From a virus: a stretch of 23,756 nucleotides of DNA. The position numbers and the translations under genes are program-made. Below the pieces are notes generated by a model. That model saw only the letters and a list, made by a program, of their open reading frames with translations. It was not told the DNA's origin and made no database searches. Every line of letters begins with the position of its first letter. Position 1 is the stretch's first letter. The stretch is taken from positions 1 to 23,756 of IMG/VR virus record IMGVR_UViG_3300032299_000466, one strand, 5' to 3'. Below, piece by piece: positions 2,284 through 12,362 of the stretch.

Positions 2284-2453
2284 GGTTCTGCTCCCTGTTG
2301 CTTTGCCAGTTGACGCGCCTCGCGCTTGCCTGACACGGTGAATGCGGCCACGTTGGAACGGCGTCCGTCCGTGATCCGGTTGATGTAGAGGGTCGGCGGG
2401 TAGCGCTTGCTACCCACCGTGTACTCTGCGGCCAAGATGCTGTCGGCCATCAT
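2271..2453 (-). CDS. small hypothetical protein, 60 aa
   Basis: The protein starts MMADSILAAEYTVGSKRYPP. A beta-type half carrying YTVGSKRYPPTLYINR and VAAFTVSG is followed by a basic helix (KREARQLAKQQG). The start overlaps the stop of the upstream gene as ATGA, and the end overlaps the next gene by 13 bases, so it is embedded in the replication operon. A second ATG lies one codon in. I do not recognise a family. Confidence 0.65.
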   Translation of the reverse strand: MMADSILAAEYTVGSKRYPPTLYINRITDGRRSNVAAFTVSGKREARQLAKQQGAEPWNF

Positions 2454-2764
2454 GCCTTCCTCGCCACGACTTTGACTACGGTGTAGCCCTTGGTGACCTT
2501 CTGGTTCTTGCTGAACCAGCGGCCGTCAACGCCCAGCTCGCGGAGCTTGGCTTCGGCCGCCTTGGCGTCGAGCGACGAGCGCTCGGCGACCGAGGAGACG
2601 GTGGCGCGGAAAGTGTCGCCGTCCACTGCACCCTCGCCGCCATTGACGAGAATGCCGATGAGGTTGGCCTCGACTGCCTTCAATTCGGCAATCTGGGCCT
2701 TGATGTCGCCCAGACGGTCGACGACCGAACCGGCGAGATCGATGGTATTAAACTTGGTAGCCAT
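2450..2764 (-). CDS. conserved phage hypothetical protein, 104 aa, first gene of replication operon
   Basis: The layout is an N-terminal helical pair with the phrase DRLGDIKAQIAELKAVEANL (residues 17-36), a DTFRATVSSVAERSSLD segment, an alanine-rich helix, and a C-terminal basic strand (GYTVVKVVARKA). I recall proteins of this layout next to phage replication genes, without known function. The ATG is preceded by GAAGGGAA inside the repeated leader ACCAACAACACGAAGGG, and promoter P1 lies directly upstream. It therefore opens the operon that runs left through the nuclease and ssDNA-binding genes. Confidence 0.72.
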   Translation of the reverse strand: MATKFNTIDLAGSVVDRLGDIKAQIAELKAVEANLIGILVNGGEGAVDGDTFRATVSSVAERSSLDAKAAEAKLRELGVDGRWFSKNQKVTKGYTVVKVVARKA

Positions 2765-2831: not shown

Positions 2832-4889
2832 CTAAGTGTAAAAAATTACAATACCGTTCTTTATTTCTATCGGCGGGTCTTTGCGCTTGACCAGCGACTG
2901 GATCGCACGGTCCAGATCGCGGCGGCGCAGGTCACGTTTCGGTGGCTCTGGCTTGGTCATGGCGGCAAAGCACTTCTCGAACAATTCAGCAAATGGCGCA
3001 CGCTCAACGCCCGCATACTGGTCCTCGATGATCTCAAGCACGTGGCGCTCGTGCGGACCGAAGCGCTGGGCCTTGGGGCCAGTCTCCTGCACCACTGGCA
3101 CAGGCACGTCAGCCTCAACGGCAACGCAGCTCGTGATCGGGTCGCCATCGGCGTCCACACCGACGGTGACAAGCTCCAAGCGGAAGCCCCACTTCAGCCC
3201 GTCGTCGCCGTCCTTCATCTTGGTGGTGTGCAGCTCGCGTGTGCCGTTCTCATGCTTCACGACCTCAAGCACGGCGTCCGCCGCCGCAAACATGCCAGAC
3301 CACCCACGGATACCCTTGGACACATCTTTGCCGCTGTGGGCCACCGCCATGATTGTCGCGCCTGTGGCCATCTCCAGTGCGCGTGCGTTGCTTAGTGCCA
3401 GCCCAACGTCCTCGGAGCTGTTCTCGTTCGCGCCCGGCGTAACCTGCGCAAAGGTGTCGACGACGATAACGTCCGCGCCGCCAGATGCAGCGACAGCCGC
3501 AGCCAGCTCGGTCACGTCCTCGGATAGCAGGAAGTTCGGCGGCACGACCAGCAGGCCAATGTCAACGTCAGCCGGATCAATCTTGTGGTGCTTCAGATAC
3601 GCCTTCAGGCGCTTGCTCATGCCCTTGCCACCCTCGGCGGCGATGATCAGCACGCGGCCCTTCTTGGTGCGGTTGCCGCGCCACGACACACCCATCGCGA
3701 TTGCGTAGGCCAAGTCAATGGCGACGAACGTCTTGCCTGAGCCTGACGCGCCGTACAACACAATCAGACCGGCGTCAGGCAGCACGTTCTTGATCAGCCA
3801 GCCGCCCGGCTCCATCATGATGCTGGCGGCCAGTGACGTGATCGGGAAGCGGCCAGTGTACTCTTCGGGCGTGAACATGCCCAGTGCAGGCGTGGCGGCA
3901 ACCGCGCTCATTGCTGTGCGCAAGTCGTCAACGGTTGCCGCCAAGGTGGGGCGCGGGGTGGATGGTGCGCCTGCCTCCTTTGCCATCTTCATTACGGATG
4001 CCATGGTCACCTGACGGTGGCCTGAACCCTTACGGCGTTCGAAGCTGTCCCACTGCTTCCGCAGCGCCTCCTCGCTGGGGTATTTCTCGCCGTGCTCCGA
4101 CCAGTCGTCCCATAGATAGAAGCCGCTGTCGTCGCCGTCGCACTCGTGGTGCAGGGCCATGCCGACCCTGACCCAGTCCTCGCGGGGCATGTCGGCGTCA
4201 AGCACGGAGAGCAGCTCCTCCATCTGGGAGACGGACAGGCCAATCTTCGGCTCGCGGCCGACCATGAAGTCGTCGGGGTCAGACACCCTCGCCGTGGAGC
4301 TGCCGAAGCGGCGCTCACAGATTTCGGTGATCGCGGGGCTGACCTTGCCCACGGTGTCCTCAAGGCCGAGGATGTCGATGTGGTCTAGGGCGTTGCCGGT
4401 CAGCGTGCAGAAGCCAGTCGTCGAGAACACCTCGAAGCCGTAGTCGGTGTCTGTAGTCGGTGCCTTGTGGTTGCCGATGTTGCCGCGCATGATGGCGCGG
4501 ATGCCGCGACCGCTGGGCGAGTACTCGGCGTAGGTTGAGCCCACGGCGTGCAGGATCTCGCTCGGCAGCTTGCCGTCGGTGACGCAGTTGTCCACGTCGA
4601 TGGCGACGAGGTCGTAACCCTCAAGCAGGGCGATGCCGATGCCAGTCATGCCACGCTTGGCGGCCTGATCCCGCGCGAGGGCGAAGGTCGTGAGCTGCGA
4701 CCGATCCTCTGGAGCGCCTTGGCGTCCGACGCGCTTGTTGCCGAGCGGGTAGTACGGCACCTTCAGCGGCTTCGGGTCGCCCTCATAGCGTGGCTCAAGC
4801 CGCCAGCACAGGAACAGCGGCAGGTCGCGCAGAGGCGCGGGGACGTGGATGTCACGGACTTCTGGTGTGATGCGTTGCACGTTGTCCAC
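2832..4889 (-). CDS. primase-helicase: AEP-like N-terminus, PriCT-2 domain, RepA/AAA_25 helicase
   Basis: This 685-residue protein would unwind DNA and prime it at the phage replication fork. Residues about 20-170 resemble the archaeo-eukaryotic primase/NrS-1-type fold, with AIDVDN (Asp98, Asp100), SPSGRGIRAI (124-133) and TTGFCTLTGN (157-166). Residues about 215-305 look like a PriCT-2 linker (EDWVRVGMALHHEC). Residues about 360-560 form a RecA-like hexameric helicase with Walker A GASGSGKT (380-387), Walker B VIVVD (474-478) and a sensor-like AHSGK (517-521). The C-terminal 80 residues look winged-helix-like. The usual primase-site His appears as Arg131, so priming activity is less certain than helicase activity. 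The start is GTG, five bases after the repressor stop and without a clear Shine-Dalgarno, so translation is probably coupled to that gene. Confidence 0.85.
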   Translation of the reverse strand: MDNVQRITPEVRDIHVPAPLRDLPLFLCWRLEPRYEGDPKPLKVPYYPLGNKRVGRQGAPEDRSQLTTFALARDQAAKRGMTGIGIALLEGYDLVAIDVDNCVTDGKLPSEILHAVGSTYAEYSPSGRGIRAIMRGNIGNHKAPTTDTDYGFEVFSTTGFCTLTGNALDHIDILGLEDTVGKVSPAITEICERRFGSSTARVSDPDDFMVGREPKIGLSVSQMEELLSVLDADMPREDWVRVGMALHHECDGDDSGFYLWDDWSEHGEKYPSEEALRKQWDSFERRKGSGHRQVTMASVMKMAKEAGAPSTPRPTLAATVDDLRTAMSAVAATPALGMFTPEEYTGRFPITSLAASIMMEPGGWLIKNVLPDAGLIVLYGASGSGKTFVAIDLAYAIAMGVSWRGNRTKKGRVLIIAAEGGKGMSKRLKAYLKHHKIDPADVDIGLLVVPPNFLLSEDVTELAAAVAASGGADVIVVDTFAQVTPGANENSSEDVGLALSNARALEMATGATIMAVAHSGKDVSKGIRGWSGMFAAADAVLEVVKHENGTRELHTTKMKDGDDGLKWGFRLELVTVGVDADGDPITSCVAVEADVPVPVVQETGPKAQRFGPHERHVLEIIEDQYAGVERAPFAELFEKCFAAMTKPEPPKRDLRRRDLDRAIQSLVKRKDPPIEIKNGIVIFYT

Positions 4890-4894
4890 GGCGT

Positions 4895-5101
4895 TCAGTT
4901 GGACGTGAACAGAGCGGCAAGCTCTGGCTTGAACAGATCGACCCGTGGGATGTCGAGCAGCTTCTCAATCTCCAGCGCGCGCTGAGACGGAACCCAGCCC
5001 TTGCGCAGCCAGACGTATATCGCTTGGTGTGACACGCCGAGCTTGGCGGCGAGCGCGTTTGCGCCGCCAGCTAGTTCAACGGCTCTCTTGATGCCTGTCA
5101 T
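4895..5101 (-). CDS. YdaS/Cro-like helix-turn-helix repressor, 68 aa
   Basis: I start it at ATG 5101 (MTGIKRAVELAGGANALAAK), which has GAAGGAC upstream, rather than at the longer frame from 5158, which would read through the promoter. Residues about 14-34 (ALAAKLGVSHQAIYVWLRKG) form the helix-turn-helix, and VPSQRALEIE followed by a leucine-rich tail fits the YdaS/Cro-like family of phage repressors. Its own promoter P4 carries a 9-base-arm palindrome across the core elements, which suggests negative autoregulation. It sits directly before the primase-helicase, so it may set the timing of replication gene expression. No partner YdaT-like gene is seen. Confidence 0.82.
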   Translation of the reverse strand: MTGIKRAVELAGGANALAAKLGVSHQAIYVWLRKGWVPSQRALEIEKLLDIPRVDLFKPELAALFTSN

Positions 5102-9299: not shown

Positions 9300-9485
9300 T
9301 TATCCTAATCTAGTGATGAAAGTTACACCTTCGATGGTGAGGCACTTGAACGCCTTACCGTTGCGGATGCCGTATTGTGACACGTTCTTAGACGTGCGCC
9401 GAGGCGCGCCCTTCTTGTCGGCTGGCATGGTGGCCACCTCGCCGATCTCCAGCGTCCCCATTGGGTAGATCATTGGTCGGGCCAC
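9300..9485 (-). CDS. small basic hypothetical protein, 61 aa
   Basis: The frame starts with GTG at 9485, overlapping the upstream TAG by one base. An ATG at 9473 is an alternative. The sequence has PADKKGAPRRTSKNVSQYGI followed by strand-rich KAFKCLTIEGVTFITRLG. The basic middle suggests nucleic-acid binding, but there is no recognised domain. Confidence 0.6.
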   Translation of the reverse strand: MARPMIYPMGTLEIGEVATMPADKKGAPRRTSKNVSQYGIRNGKAFKCLTIEGVTFITRLG

Positions 9486-10018
9486 TATTCGCAGCCCCAG
9501 ACTTGTGTCGCTGTCAGGATGTCGCTGGGCCAGCCTGTGTCGGTGGTGAAGCTGCGCTCCTCGAAGAGCAGCATGTTCGTCGGCCGGATGAGCAGCCTGT
9601 CGCCCTCCGTCCGCATGAACATGAACTCCTTACTCTGCTCTGGCGCGGCACTGAAGCCGTCACCATATGGGCAGGCGGTGAACAGGCAGGTCGCTCGGTC
9701 GTCGGTGCCGTCGTAACGCGCCGTCAGGTCCGCCAGATAGTCGTAGCGTATGACGTCGAACTCGGTGCCGTAGCAGTCCCATACTTGCGCCTCTTGCAGT
9801 GTCCACCACGGCGCAGGGCAGGCGCTGAAGGCTATCGCGTGTGGTGGCACGTTGCGGTAGACCGCGCCGCACTCAAGCATGACGTGGCAGCCCCACGCGC
9901 GGCTCGGCTCGGATCGCAGGGCGAACCAGACGGCAGGCTCGAAGCCAACGTCGTCCTTGCGGATGAACGCACGGTCGACGTAGACGTACAGGTGGTGTGG
10001 CAGGTTGCGGCTGGCCAT
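9485..10018 (-). CDS. conserved phage-type hypothetical protein, 177 aa
   Basis: The protein starts MASRNLPHHLYVYVDRAFIR and is rich in aromatic residues, Cys and Gly. It carries phrases such as GFEPAVWFALRSEPSRAWGC, WDCYGTEFDVIRYDYL and APEQSKEFMFMRTEGDRLLI. It gives the impression of a folded beta-rich enzyme-like or binding domain. I cannot assign a family or catalytic residues. It starts at TAATG, overlapping the upstream stop. It is the largest unknown of the early arm outside the replication genes. Confidence 0.7.
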   Translation of the reverse strand: MASRNLPHHLYVYVDRAFIRKDDVGFEPAVWFALRSEPSRAWGCHVMLECGAVYRNVPPHAIAFSACPAPWWTLQEAQVWDCYGTEFDVIRYDYLADLTARYDGTDDRATCLFTACPYGDGFSAAPEQSKEFMFMRTEGDRLLIRPTNMLLFEERSFTTDTGWPSDILTATQVWGCE

Positions 10019-11392: not shown

Positions 11393-11420
11393 TCCATAAA
11401 CAGTTTGAGGGTATATGCAA
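11393..11420 (-). promoter_or_regulatory. leftward early promoter P3
   Basis: On the minus strand TTGCAT (11420-11415) and TATGGA (11398-11393) are spaced by 16 bases, within GTTTATGGA, which aligns with the GTTTAG.GA of P1 and P2. An alternative -10 is GATAAT (11394-11389) with a 20-base spacer. The repeated leader and the first left-arm gene follow. Confidence 0.55.
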
Positions 11421-11454: not shown

Positions 11455-11522
11455 GGGCCTATGTGTAAAAAATTACAGGTGGTAAATGGGCTGTGCAATC
11501 GTGTGGTTTACACCGTCTCGAT

Positions 11523-11680
11523 ACACCATGCAATCAAAGCGTTTACACCATGTCCCATGACGCACCATGGGACATCATGGGACGTGGTGCATGTACCAAC
11601 CCATGAGAGTATACCCCTTTAGGGGTACTCATGGTGTGGGACACGTGGGTCATGGTGTGGAGCAGAAAAAGTCATGGGTC
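11523..11680. repeat. cluster of CATG-centred iteron-like repeats
   Basis: CATG occurs at 11527, 11549, 11556, 11566, 11576, 11590, 11602, 11630, 11651 and 11673. Most are embedded in two longer words. ACACCATG occurs at 11523 and 11545, with its inverse CATGGTGT at 11630 and 11651. CATGGGAC occurs at 11566 and 11576, with its inverse GTCCCATG at 11552. Several spacings are near 10 or 21 bases, so the sites lie on one face of the helix. Confidence 0.7.
11601..11634. repeat. bulged hairpin with 13 paired bases
   Basis: CCATGAG (11601-11607) pairs with CTCATGG (11628-11634), and TACCCC (11612-11617) pairs with GGGGTA (11622-11627). A TTTA loop closes it, and four unpaired bases lie on the left side. 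It falls in the middle of the CATG cluster. Confidence 0.6.
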
Positions 11681-11695
11681 GGAAATGGTGGACCT

Positions 11696-11740
11696 CGTCC
11701 CGTACCACGCGTCCCGTGACACTCGTGGAGCAGACGGGAC
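11696..11740. repeat. direct and inverted CGTCCCGT repeats
   Basis: CGTCCCGT appears at 11696-11703 and 11710-11717, 14 bases apart. The second copy faces ACGGGAC (11734-11740). They lie between the CATG cluster and the rightward promoter and may be operator sites for it. Confidence 0.5.
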
Positions 11741-11786
11741 AGGTCAACTTGTAATTATTCGCAAGTGACAGTGTCGGGCAGGTAGG

Positions 11787-11815: not shown

Positions 11816-11906
11816 TGTTGTGTGACCTATTGCACTGCGCATCGGCTGGTGTTATTTGGGCGCTGTAACTGGTAGCACTGTGCACGTGAACGGAGCATGC
11901 AGACAA

Positions 11907-12362
11907 ATGCCTTACCCGGCGAAGAAGAATGATAAGTTGGTGGCGGAGGTGCTTGAGCGCCTGTCGCTCGGCGAGACGATGACGTCGATCAGTCGCGACC
12001 TGAAGTTCAGCACGATGTCGTGGAGCCGGTGGCTCGAAGAAGACGAAGCATTAGCGTCCGCACACGCGCAAGCCAGAGCCGCTGGCGCAGACGCCATCGC
12101 CGACGAAGTCCTCGAGATCGTTGACACGCCGCCTGAGCGCTTCGAGGGCAAGATCGACAACGGTTCGATAAGCTGGGCGCGCAACCGCGCCGAGTACCGC
12201 CTCAAGCTGCTCGGCCACTGGCGGCCTGAGAAGTACGGCACGAAGACCACCACCGAGATCACAGGCAAGGACGGCAAGGGCTTGACCAACGTGCCTGACC
12301 CAGCCGAACTGGCGCTGCGCATCGCCGCCAGCCTGCGAGCCGCGAAGCGCGACGGCGAATGA
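11907..12362 (+). CDS. terS: terminase small subunit, Sf6-type
   Basis: The 151-residue product recognises phage DNA and passes it to the large terminase. I start it at ATG 11907 (MPYPAKKNDKLVAEVLERLS), with GGAG upstream, rather than at the TTG at 11856. An N-terminal helix-turn-helix (ETMTSISRDLKFSTMSWSRW, about residues 23-42) and an oligomerisation helix (AHAQARAAGADAIADEVLEI) are visible. The C-terminal phrase LLGHWRPEKYGTKTT is the usual end of the Sf6-like small terminase core. It overlaps the next gene by ATGA, which leads into the large terminase. It is the first gene of the late arm. Confidence 0.88.
   Translation: MPYPAKKNDKLVAEVLERLSLGETMTSISRDLKFSTMSWSRWLEEDEALASAHAQARAAGADAIADEVLEIVDTPPERFEGKIDNGSISWARNRAEYRLKLLGHWRPEKYGTKTTTEITGKDGKGLTNVPDPAELALRIAASLRAAKRDGE

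Follow-up and report, generated by a model that had tools for sequence, protein, structure and literature searches.

The window, by which we mean the whole 23,756-base stretch of the virus record that was analyzed, is organized around a non-coding junction from which two gene arms diverge. Genes to the left of ~11.4 kb read leftward and form the early arm (exonuclease, primase-helicase, repressor and small genes), and those from 11,907 rightward encode the terminase small subunit (TerS), the terminase large subunit (TerL) and the portal. TerS, the first late gene (11907–12362, plus strand), matched Pfam Sf6_terminase with E = 9e-21. The gene for a YdaS/Cro-like repressor (4895–5101, minus strand; Pfam YdaS_toxin 4.6e-13, P22_Cro 2.2e-7; start codon inferred from homologues) lies directly upstream of the primase-helicase gene in the same early operon. 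The primase-helicase (2832–4889, minus strand), assigned from profile matches and structure prediction, is the proposed user of the junction element described here. Elsewhere in the window, 9485–10018 (minus strand) matched a ferredoxin-annotated auxiliary family of PHROGs with E = 1.6e-10.

Two putative promoters read from the sequence flank the junction element and point away from it. The early one (11393–11420, minus strand) consists of TTGCAT at 11420–11415, a ~16-bp spacer and TATGGA at 11398–11393, and its −35/−10 position is common to the aligned relatives (TTTACA or TTGACG, then TAT...). The late one (11830–11858, plus strand; TTGCAC-N17-TATTTG), which would initiate downstream of the element, has equally spaced, similar hexamers in the corresponding position in groups A, B and C of related phages. 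The element is thus outside both putative main transcripts, and we found no convincing promoter or terminator inside it and, in the window, no convincing gene between it and TerS; the earlier description of the region as a divergent control region matches a real non-coding element where the early and late arms diverge. Among close relatives (such as G019, G029, G030, L005 and L177) a small-gene cassette, absent from the window, is exchanged between element and TerS, encoding a KANYWLGWNG-type protein in many relatives and other unrelated ORFs elsewhere. From left to right, the junction contains an A-tract palindrome TGTAAAAAATTACA (11464–11477), conserved in groups A and B and found in reverse-complement form in L177, L178 and L188; two plus-strand copies, 35 bp apart, of TGCAATC(N5)GTTTACACC (11494–11514 and 11529–11549), found in 1–2 copies in A/B relatives and absent from group C; a left hairpin (11546–11589, plus strand) with 22-nt arms that are 82% complementary, CACCATGTCCCATGACG...CATCATGGGACGTGGTG, whose homologues in A/B relatives include imperfect ones; a central bulged hairpin (11596–11639, plus strand); and an inverted repeat ACTTG...CAAGT (11747–11766), similar to AACTTG...CAAGTT repeats in group A relatives and L007.

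The sequence-only reading had singled out ten CATG sites at this junction, and a recount confirmed all of them within 11527–11676, starting at 11527, 11549, 11556, 11566, 11576, 11590, 11602, 11630, 11651 and 11673 (start-to-start spacings of 22, 7, 10, 10, 14, 12, 28, 21 and 22). They occur in two longer words in both orientations over 11523–11676: ACACCATG on the plus strand at 11523 and 11545 with inverted copies at 11630 and 11651, and CATGGGAC at 11566 and 11576 with its inverted form GTCCCATG at 11552. No other 4-mer clusters as strongly in the window, and ten sites exceed anything obtained by dinucleotide shuffling, whether of the whole window (200 shuffles, maximum 7) or of 11500–11700 alone (2000 shuffles, maximum 8). 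The claim that chance predicts fewer than one site holds for the window average (0.76 per 150 bp) but is slightly overstated against the local shuffle mean of 2.9. The proposed arrangement on one face of the helix received partial support, since phasing at 10.5 bp was weak in the window (R = 0.59, p = 0.03) and comparable in L001 and L012, the phages closest to it, but was not seen in the relatives tested outside group A.

At the center of the cluster lies a feature that had not been remarked on earlier, the bulged hairpin CCATGAG-[AGTA]-TACCCC-TTTA-GGGGTA-CTCATGG, composed of an outer 3 bp, a 2×2 internal loop, 7 bp, a 5′-side bulge (AGTA, 11608–11611), 6 bp and a TTTA loop (11618–11621). Because MAFFT misplaced the repeated TA of this hairpin, stem pairs were scored on a structural alignment made by hand. 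Across nine distinct A/B sequences 106 of 109 stem cells were paired, none of them as G-T, and 7 of the 13 stem positions had changed on both sides. None of 2000 shuffles paired as well and 36 of 2000 matched the number of double changes, counts that are not strict probabilities as the sequences are related. More distant versions have no stem sequence in common, as GG[T]CTATATC-TCC-GATATAGCC in G024 illustrates, and still keep a bulge of 1–4 nt on the same (5′) strand in every lineage examined except G030, in which the extra bases are on the other arm. Because G-T pairs amount to only ~3% on either strand across lineages, the structure is better explained as a DNA palindrome than as a transcribed RNA; template switches that correct palindromes could be a partial source of the compensatory changes. 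The element is not exceptional in folding energy (fold z of −3 to −4, not unique within the window), and ranking by hairpin energy alone was dropped, as GC-rich genes fold too. The strongest of 236 windows scanned, each against 20 shuffles, was the plus strand of 2501–2700 (z ~ −7.9), inside the coding sequence 2450–2764 (minus strand). The right end of T7, taken as a comparator, gave no strong hairpin by the same method. As judged from these comparisons, the central bulged hairpin is the conserved feature of the junction.

Relatives were collected by TerL and TerS searches of IMG/VR and by a search with the conserved DNA preceding TerS, which gave ~100 loci, many of them overlapping, from which ~25 related phage records were compared; no TerL relative was found in bacterial genomes. 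Nearly all of these ~25 records carried a strongly folding hairpin element at the early/late junction; L063, with a TerL only 32% identical, also retained a strong hairpin, and where the junction was present a repeat-rich palindromic element almost always lay between the early and late promoters. The check for a repeat cluster at the same place in related genomes therefore succeeded, though the word differs. The commonest word was CATGG/CACCATG in the window, G001 and G014; TGGTGCA in G002, G004, G006 and G012; TGCAGCA in G009, G018, G021, G022, G023 and G027; TGCAAC in G028; TGCACC in G029; CACCATT in G030; and GTGACA in G024. CATG is specific to the window's lineage in this survey, and the cluster, real as it is, reads as one lineage's spelling of a shape-conserved element, in which the shape rather than the word seems to matter. 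Several observations on individual records were made in passing. Group C words are TGCA-cored, and in the group C phage G018 (L083:18911-20000) a C5-cytosine methylase gene adjoins the repressor and primase-helicase genes. In the distant relative G020, the primase-helicase homologue (G020:C1:54094-56071) is split by frameshifts into several matching pieces and contains one in-frame TGA, as would be seen in a broken gene or a poor assembly. Terminal redundancies of G018 and G019 were rejected as physical ends, the former being a strain mixture and the latter a 120-bp overlap.

Two relatives, G029 and G030, constitute a natural replacement of the element. Over aligned blocks their DNA is mostly 88–98% identical, the two longest blocks reaching 95% and 98%. 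Identity is 100% for the repressor, primase-helicase and TerL proteins and 98% for TerS. The early promoter and its TTGCA-N-TGCAA palindrome align at 90% identity over 107 bp, and the stretch comprising the late promoter and the start of TerS at 100% over 105 bp. The DNA between the two promoters, element included, showed no detectable similarity, and both elements fold far better than their shuffles (z = −5.8 each). A third phage, G028, shares the repressor, the primase and TerS (87–98%) with this pair but not the word. The word is thus independent of the repressor, primase and TerS sequences, and recognition of shape versus sequence becomes directly testable in this pair.

An unlikely explanation of the element, although the best of the alternatives, is that the palindrome marks the packaging start site of terminase or the place at which genome ends form. 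It lies immediately upstream of the TerS gene, and the more distant Caulobacter phage KcrB (TerL 60% identical) has a terminal repeat of 2940 bp annotated as ending in the same intergenic region between divergent genes, where a palindrome containing CTAG is ~30 bp away (L114:2800-3260); GB2A carries the same terminal-repeat annotation and RW the same gene layout. The KcrB palindrome has no bulged hairpin, however, which makes its homology uncertain, and we found no account in the literature of how the KcrB ends were determined. Moreover, the metagenomic contigs run through the element, and the 98% identical TerS proteins of G029 and G030 would have to act on unrelated elements; we know of no TerS that recognizes shape alone. 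Origin and packaging sites may also coincide.

Improbable in our judgment is an operator or iteron array, in which one of the two candidate binders named by the sequence-only reading, the YdaS/Cro-like repressor or the primase-helicase, would occupy the repeated words along one face of the helix. The words do repeat in both orientations, 10.5-bp phasing is detectable in the window (p = 0.03), and the repressor recognition helix differs between some word classes: VSHQAVYVW goes with CATGG/TGGTG, HQAVYAW or YSW with TGCAGC, and VQAVQQW with GTGACA. However, phasing is missing outside group A, and the idea that the helix dictates the word breaks down twice, as groups A and B share a recognition helix yet use CATGG and TGGTGCA, respectively, and G028 (TGCAAC) and G029 (TGCACC) differ in word despite an identical recognition helix. 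Iterons or operators would be expected to keep their word together with a cognate binding protein, which was not the case among G028, G029 and G030, and the complete identity of the repressor and primase-helicase in the G029/G030 pair indicates that neither protein fixes the word. It is mainly this swap, which separates the element from repressor, primase and terminase, that led us to reject the array, although some other gene may encode a binder. A more plausible operator is the TTGCA-N-TGCAA palindrome at the early promoter, which is kept in G029/G030, group C and KcrB. A transcribed structured non-coding RNA, acting as an antiterminator, a polymerase-binding RNA or a packaging RNA, is disfavored as marginally the least probable alternative: despite a fold z of −4 as RNA on both strands and covariation of the bulged hairpin, the element had no Rfam match above the gathering score, both recognizable promoters start outside it and read away, no convincing promoter or terminator lies within it, and G-U pairs are almost absent with no strand preference.

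The properties of the early-operon primase-helicase point instead to replication. This 685-residue protein consists of an N-terminal primase domain, PriCT-2, a hexameric helicase and a C-terminal domain. The primase domain is of the archaeo-eukaryotic type, matching the profiles of DNA primase 7ola (E = 3.5e-23) and of 6a9w (E = 7.6e-13), the PDB entry that we take to be the NrS-1 primase-polymerase; sequence profiles were used here as the whole-protein structure model was poor for this domain. The helicase domain is AAA_25 and matched RSF1010 RepA (E = 1.6e-4; fold match to 1g8y with a TM-score of 0.68, normalized by target). The AlphaFold model of the C-terminal domain (pLDDT 84) has the order H-E-H-H-E-E, and its best PDB matches, statistically weak at E = 0.02 or worse, were mostly winged helices. 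A Pfam and PHROGs scan of ten window proteins revealed no HUH or other nicking Rep protein. NrS-1 PrimPol primes at GTG (PMC8718748). In the element, GTG/CAC was above background in 24/24 genomes (z 0.6–6.9, weak in group C), although this enrichment is not unique, TGC and A-tracts being equally high. GTG was commoner to the right of the hairpin and CAC to the left, an orientation that would allow priming of both strands across the hairpin. It is only suggestive, because any inverted repeat produces oriented words automatically.

Our preferred reading, to which we give roughly even odds, is that the element is a structure-recognized stem-loop replication origin working like that of pRN1, with the CATG cluster as the form it takes in one lineage. 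Under negative supercoiling or in single-stranded DNA, the element would form a large imperfect palindrome with the bulged hairpin at its center, and we infer that such a cruciform or single-stranded hairpin arises in vivo and is recognized by the primase-helicase. This protein would assemble at the element, perhaps via its winged helix, and its RepA-like ring would unwind the duplex and so expose the hairpins. The PrimPol domain would then prime at nearby GTG sites, mostly right of the hairpin on the plus strand and left of it on the minus strand, and the phage DNA polymerase A would extend outward in both directions. The origin half of the earlier suggestion of an iteron-type origin or multi-site operator is thereby retained, whereas recognition of CATG, or of any fixed word, is not supported. 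The GC-skew check suggested for an origin was uninformative because genes diverge from the element: the cumulative skew had no clear turning point there, and an AT-skew minimum at the element tracks gene direction. We consider it possible, although rather doubtful, that this is an origin family identified by self-complementarity alone, in which the same primase-helicase would fire from elements with unrelated words, exchanged as cassettes, and in which the 'iterons' arise from homogenization of the palindrome and not from binding specificity. Origins and operators are usually found by their conserved words; here the word appears arbitrary and the fold conserved, so that searches relying on words would overlook or misinterpret such sites.

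Among known systems, the crenarchaeal plasmid pRN1 offers the closest parallels. Its operon, like the one here, encodes a repressor and an archaeo-eukaryotic PrimPol-helicase, and its ~100-nt stem-loop, conserved between relatives in structure but not in sequence, is required intact for replication by experiment, a base change being rescued once the symmetry of the stem was restored (PMC4234260). The same authors noted similar stem-loops in phages with PriCT_2-containing relatives, including a proposed one in Bordetella phage BIP-1 (PMC4234260), and PriCT_2 is present in both the BIP-1 protein and the window primase-helicase. The winged helix that pRN1 has at its C-terminus has a tentatively predicted counterpart here. 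In contrast, the pRN1 helicase is of the SF3 type and that of the window is RepA-like AAA_25, not SF3; the pRN1 stem-loop is directly downstream of the replication gene and the element is 6.6 kb away at the early/late junction; and repeated words surround the bulged hairpin only here. The element should not be filed as a pRN1-type family member, because helicase type and position differ and its function is only predicted. At RSF1010 oriV (ssiA/ssiB hairpins, RepA helicase, RepB' primase), the same kind of hexameric helicase, related to the one here, exposes hairpins recognized by the primase (PMC4234260, PMC4434180), which is thought to prime at GTG (PMC4434180). An AT-rich tract beside repeats and a hairpin is common to both, but in the window primase and helicase are fused, the word is not conserved and no RepC-like iteron protein was identified. 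The NrS-1 phage system has the homologous N-terminal PrimPol and the GTG priming motif that is enriched in the element, and additionally uses a defined 8-nt motif TTTGGTTA (PMC8718748); no stem-loop origin of NrS-1 was found in the literature examined. The nearest isolates by TerL (60%), Caulobacter phages KcrB, RW, RLK and GB2A of the Riverwalk cluster, likewise have a divergent junction rich in palindromes, but their palindrome is of CTAG/GGGCGG make-up, the bulged hairpin is missing, genes intervene between junction and TerS, and a terminal repeat boundary is annotated at the junction; the KcrB early promoter carries CTTGCAAC-N6-GTTGCAAG. If the origin reading is correct, it would link this family of uncultivated phages, apparently from freshwater, to the stem-loop origins of PrimPol replicons, which have been little studied.
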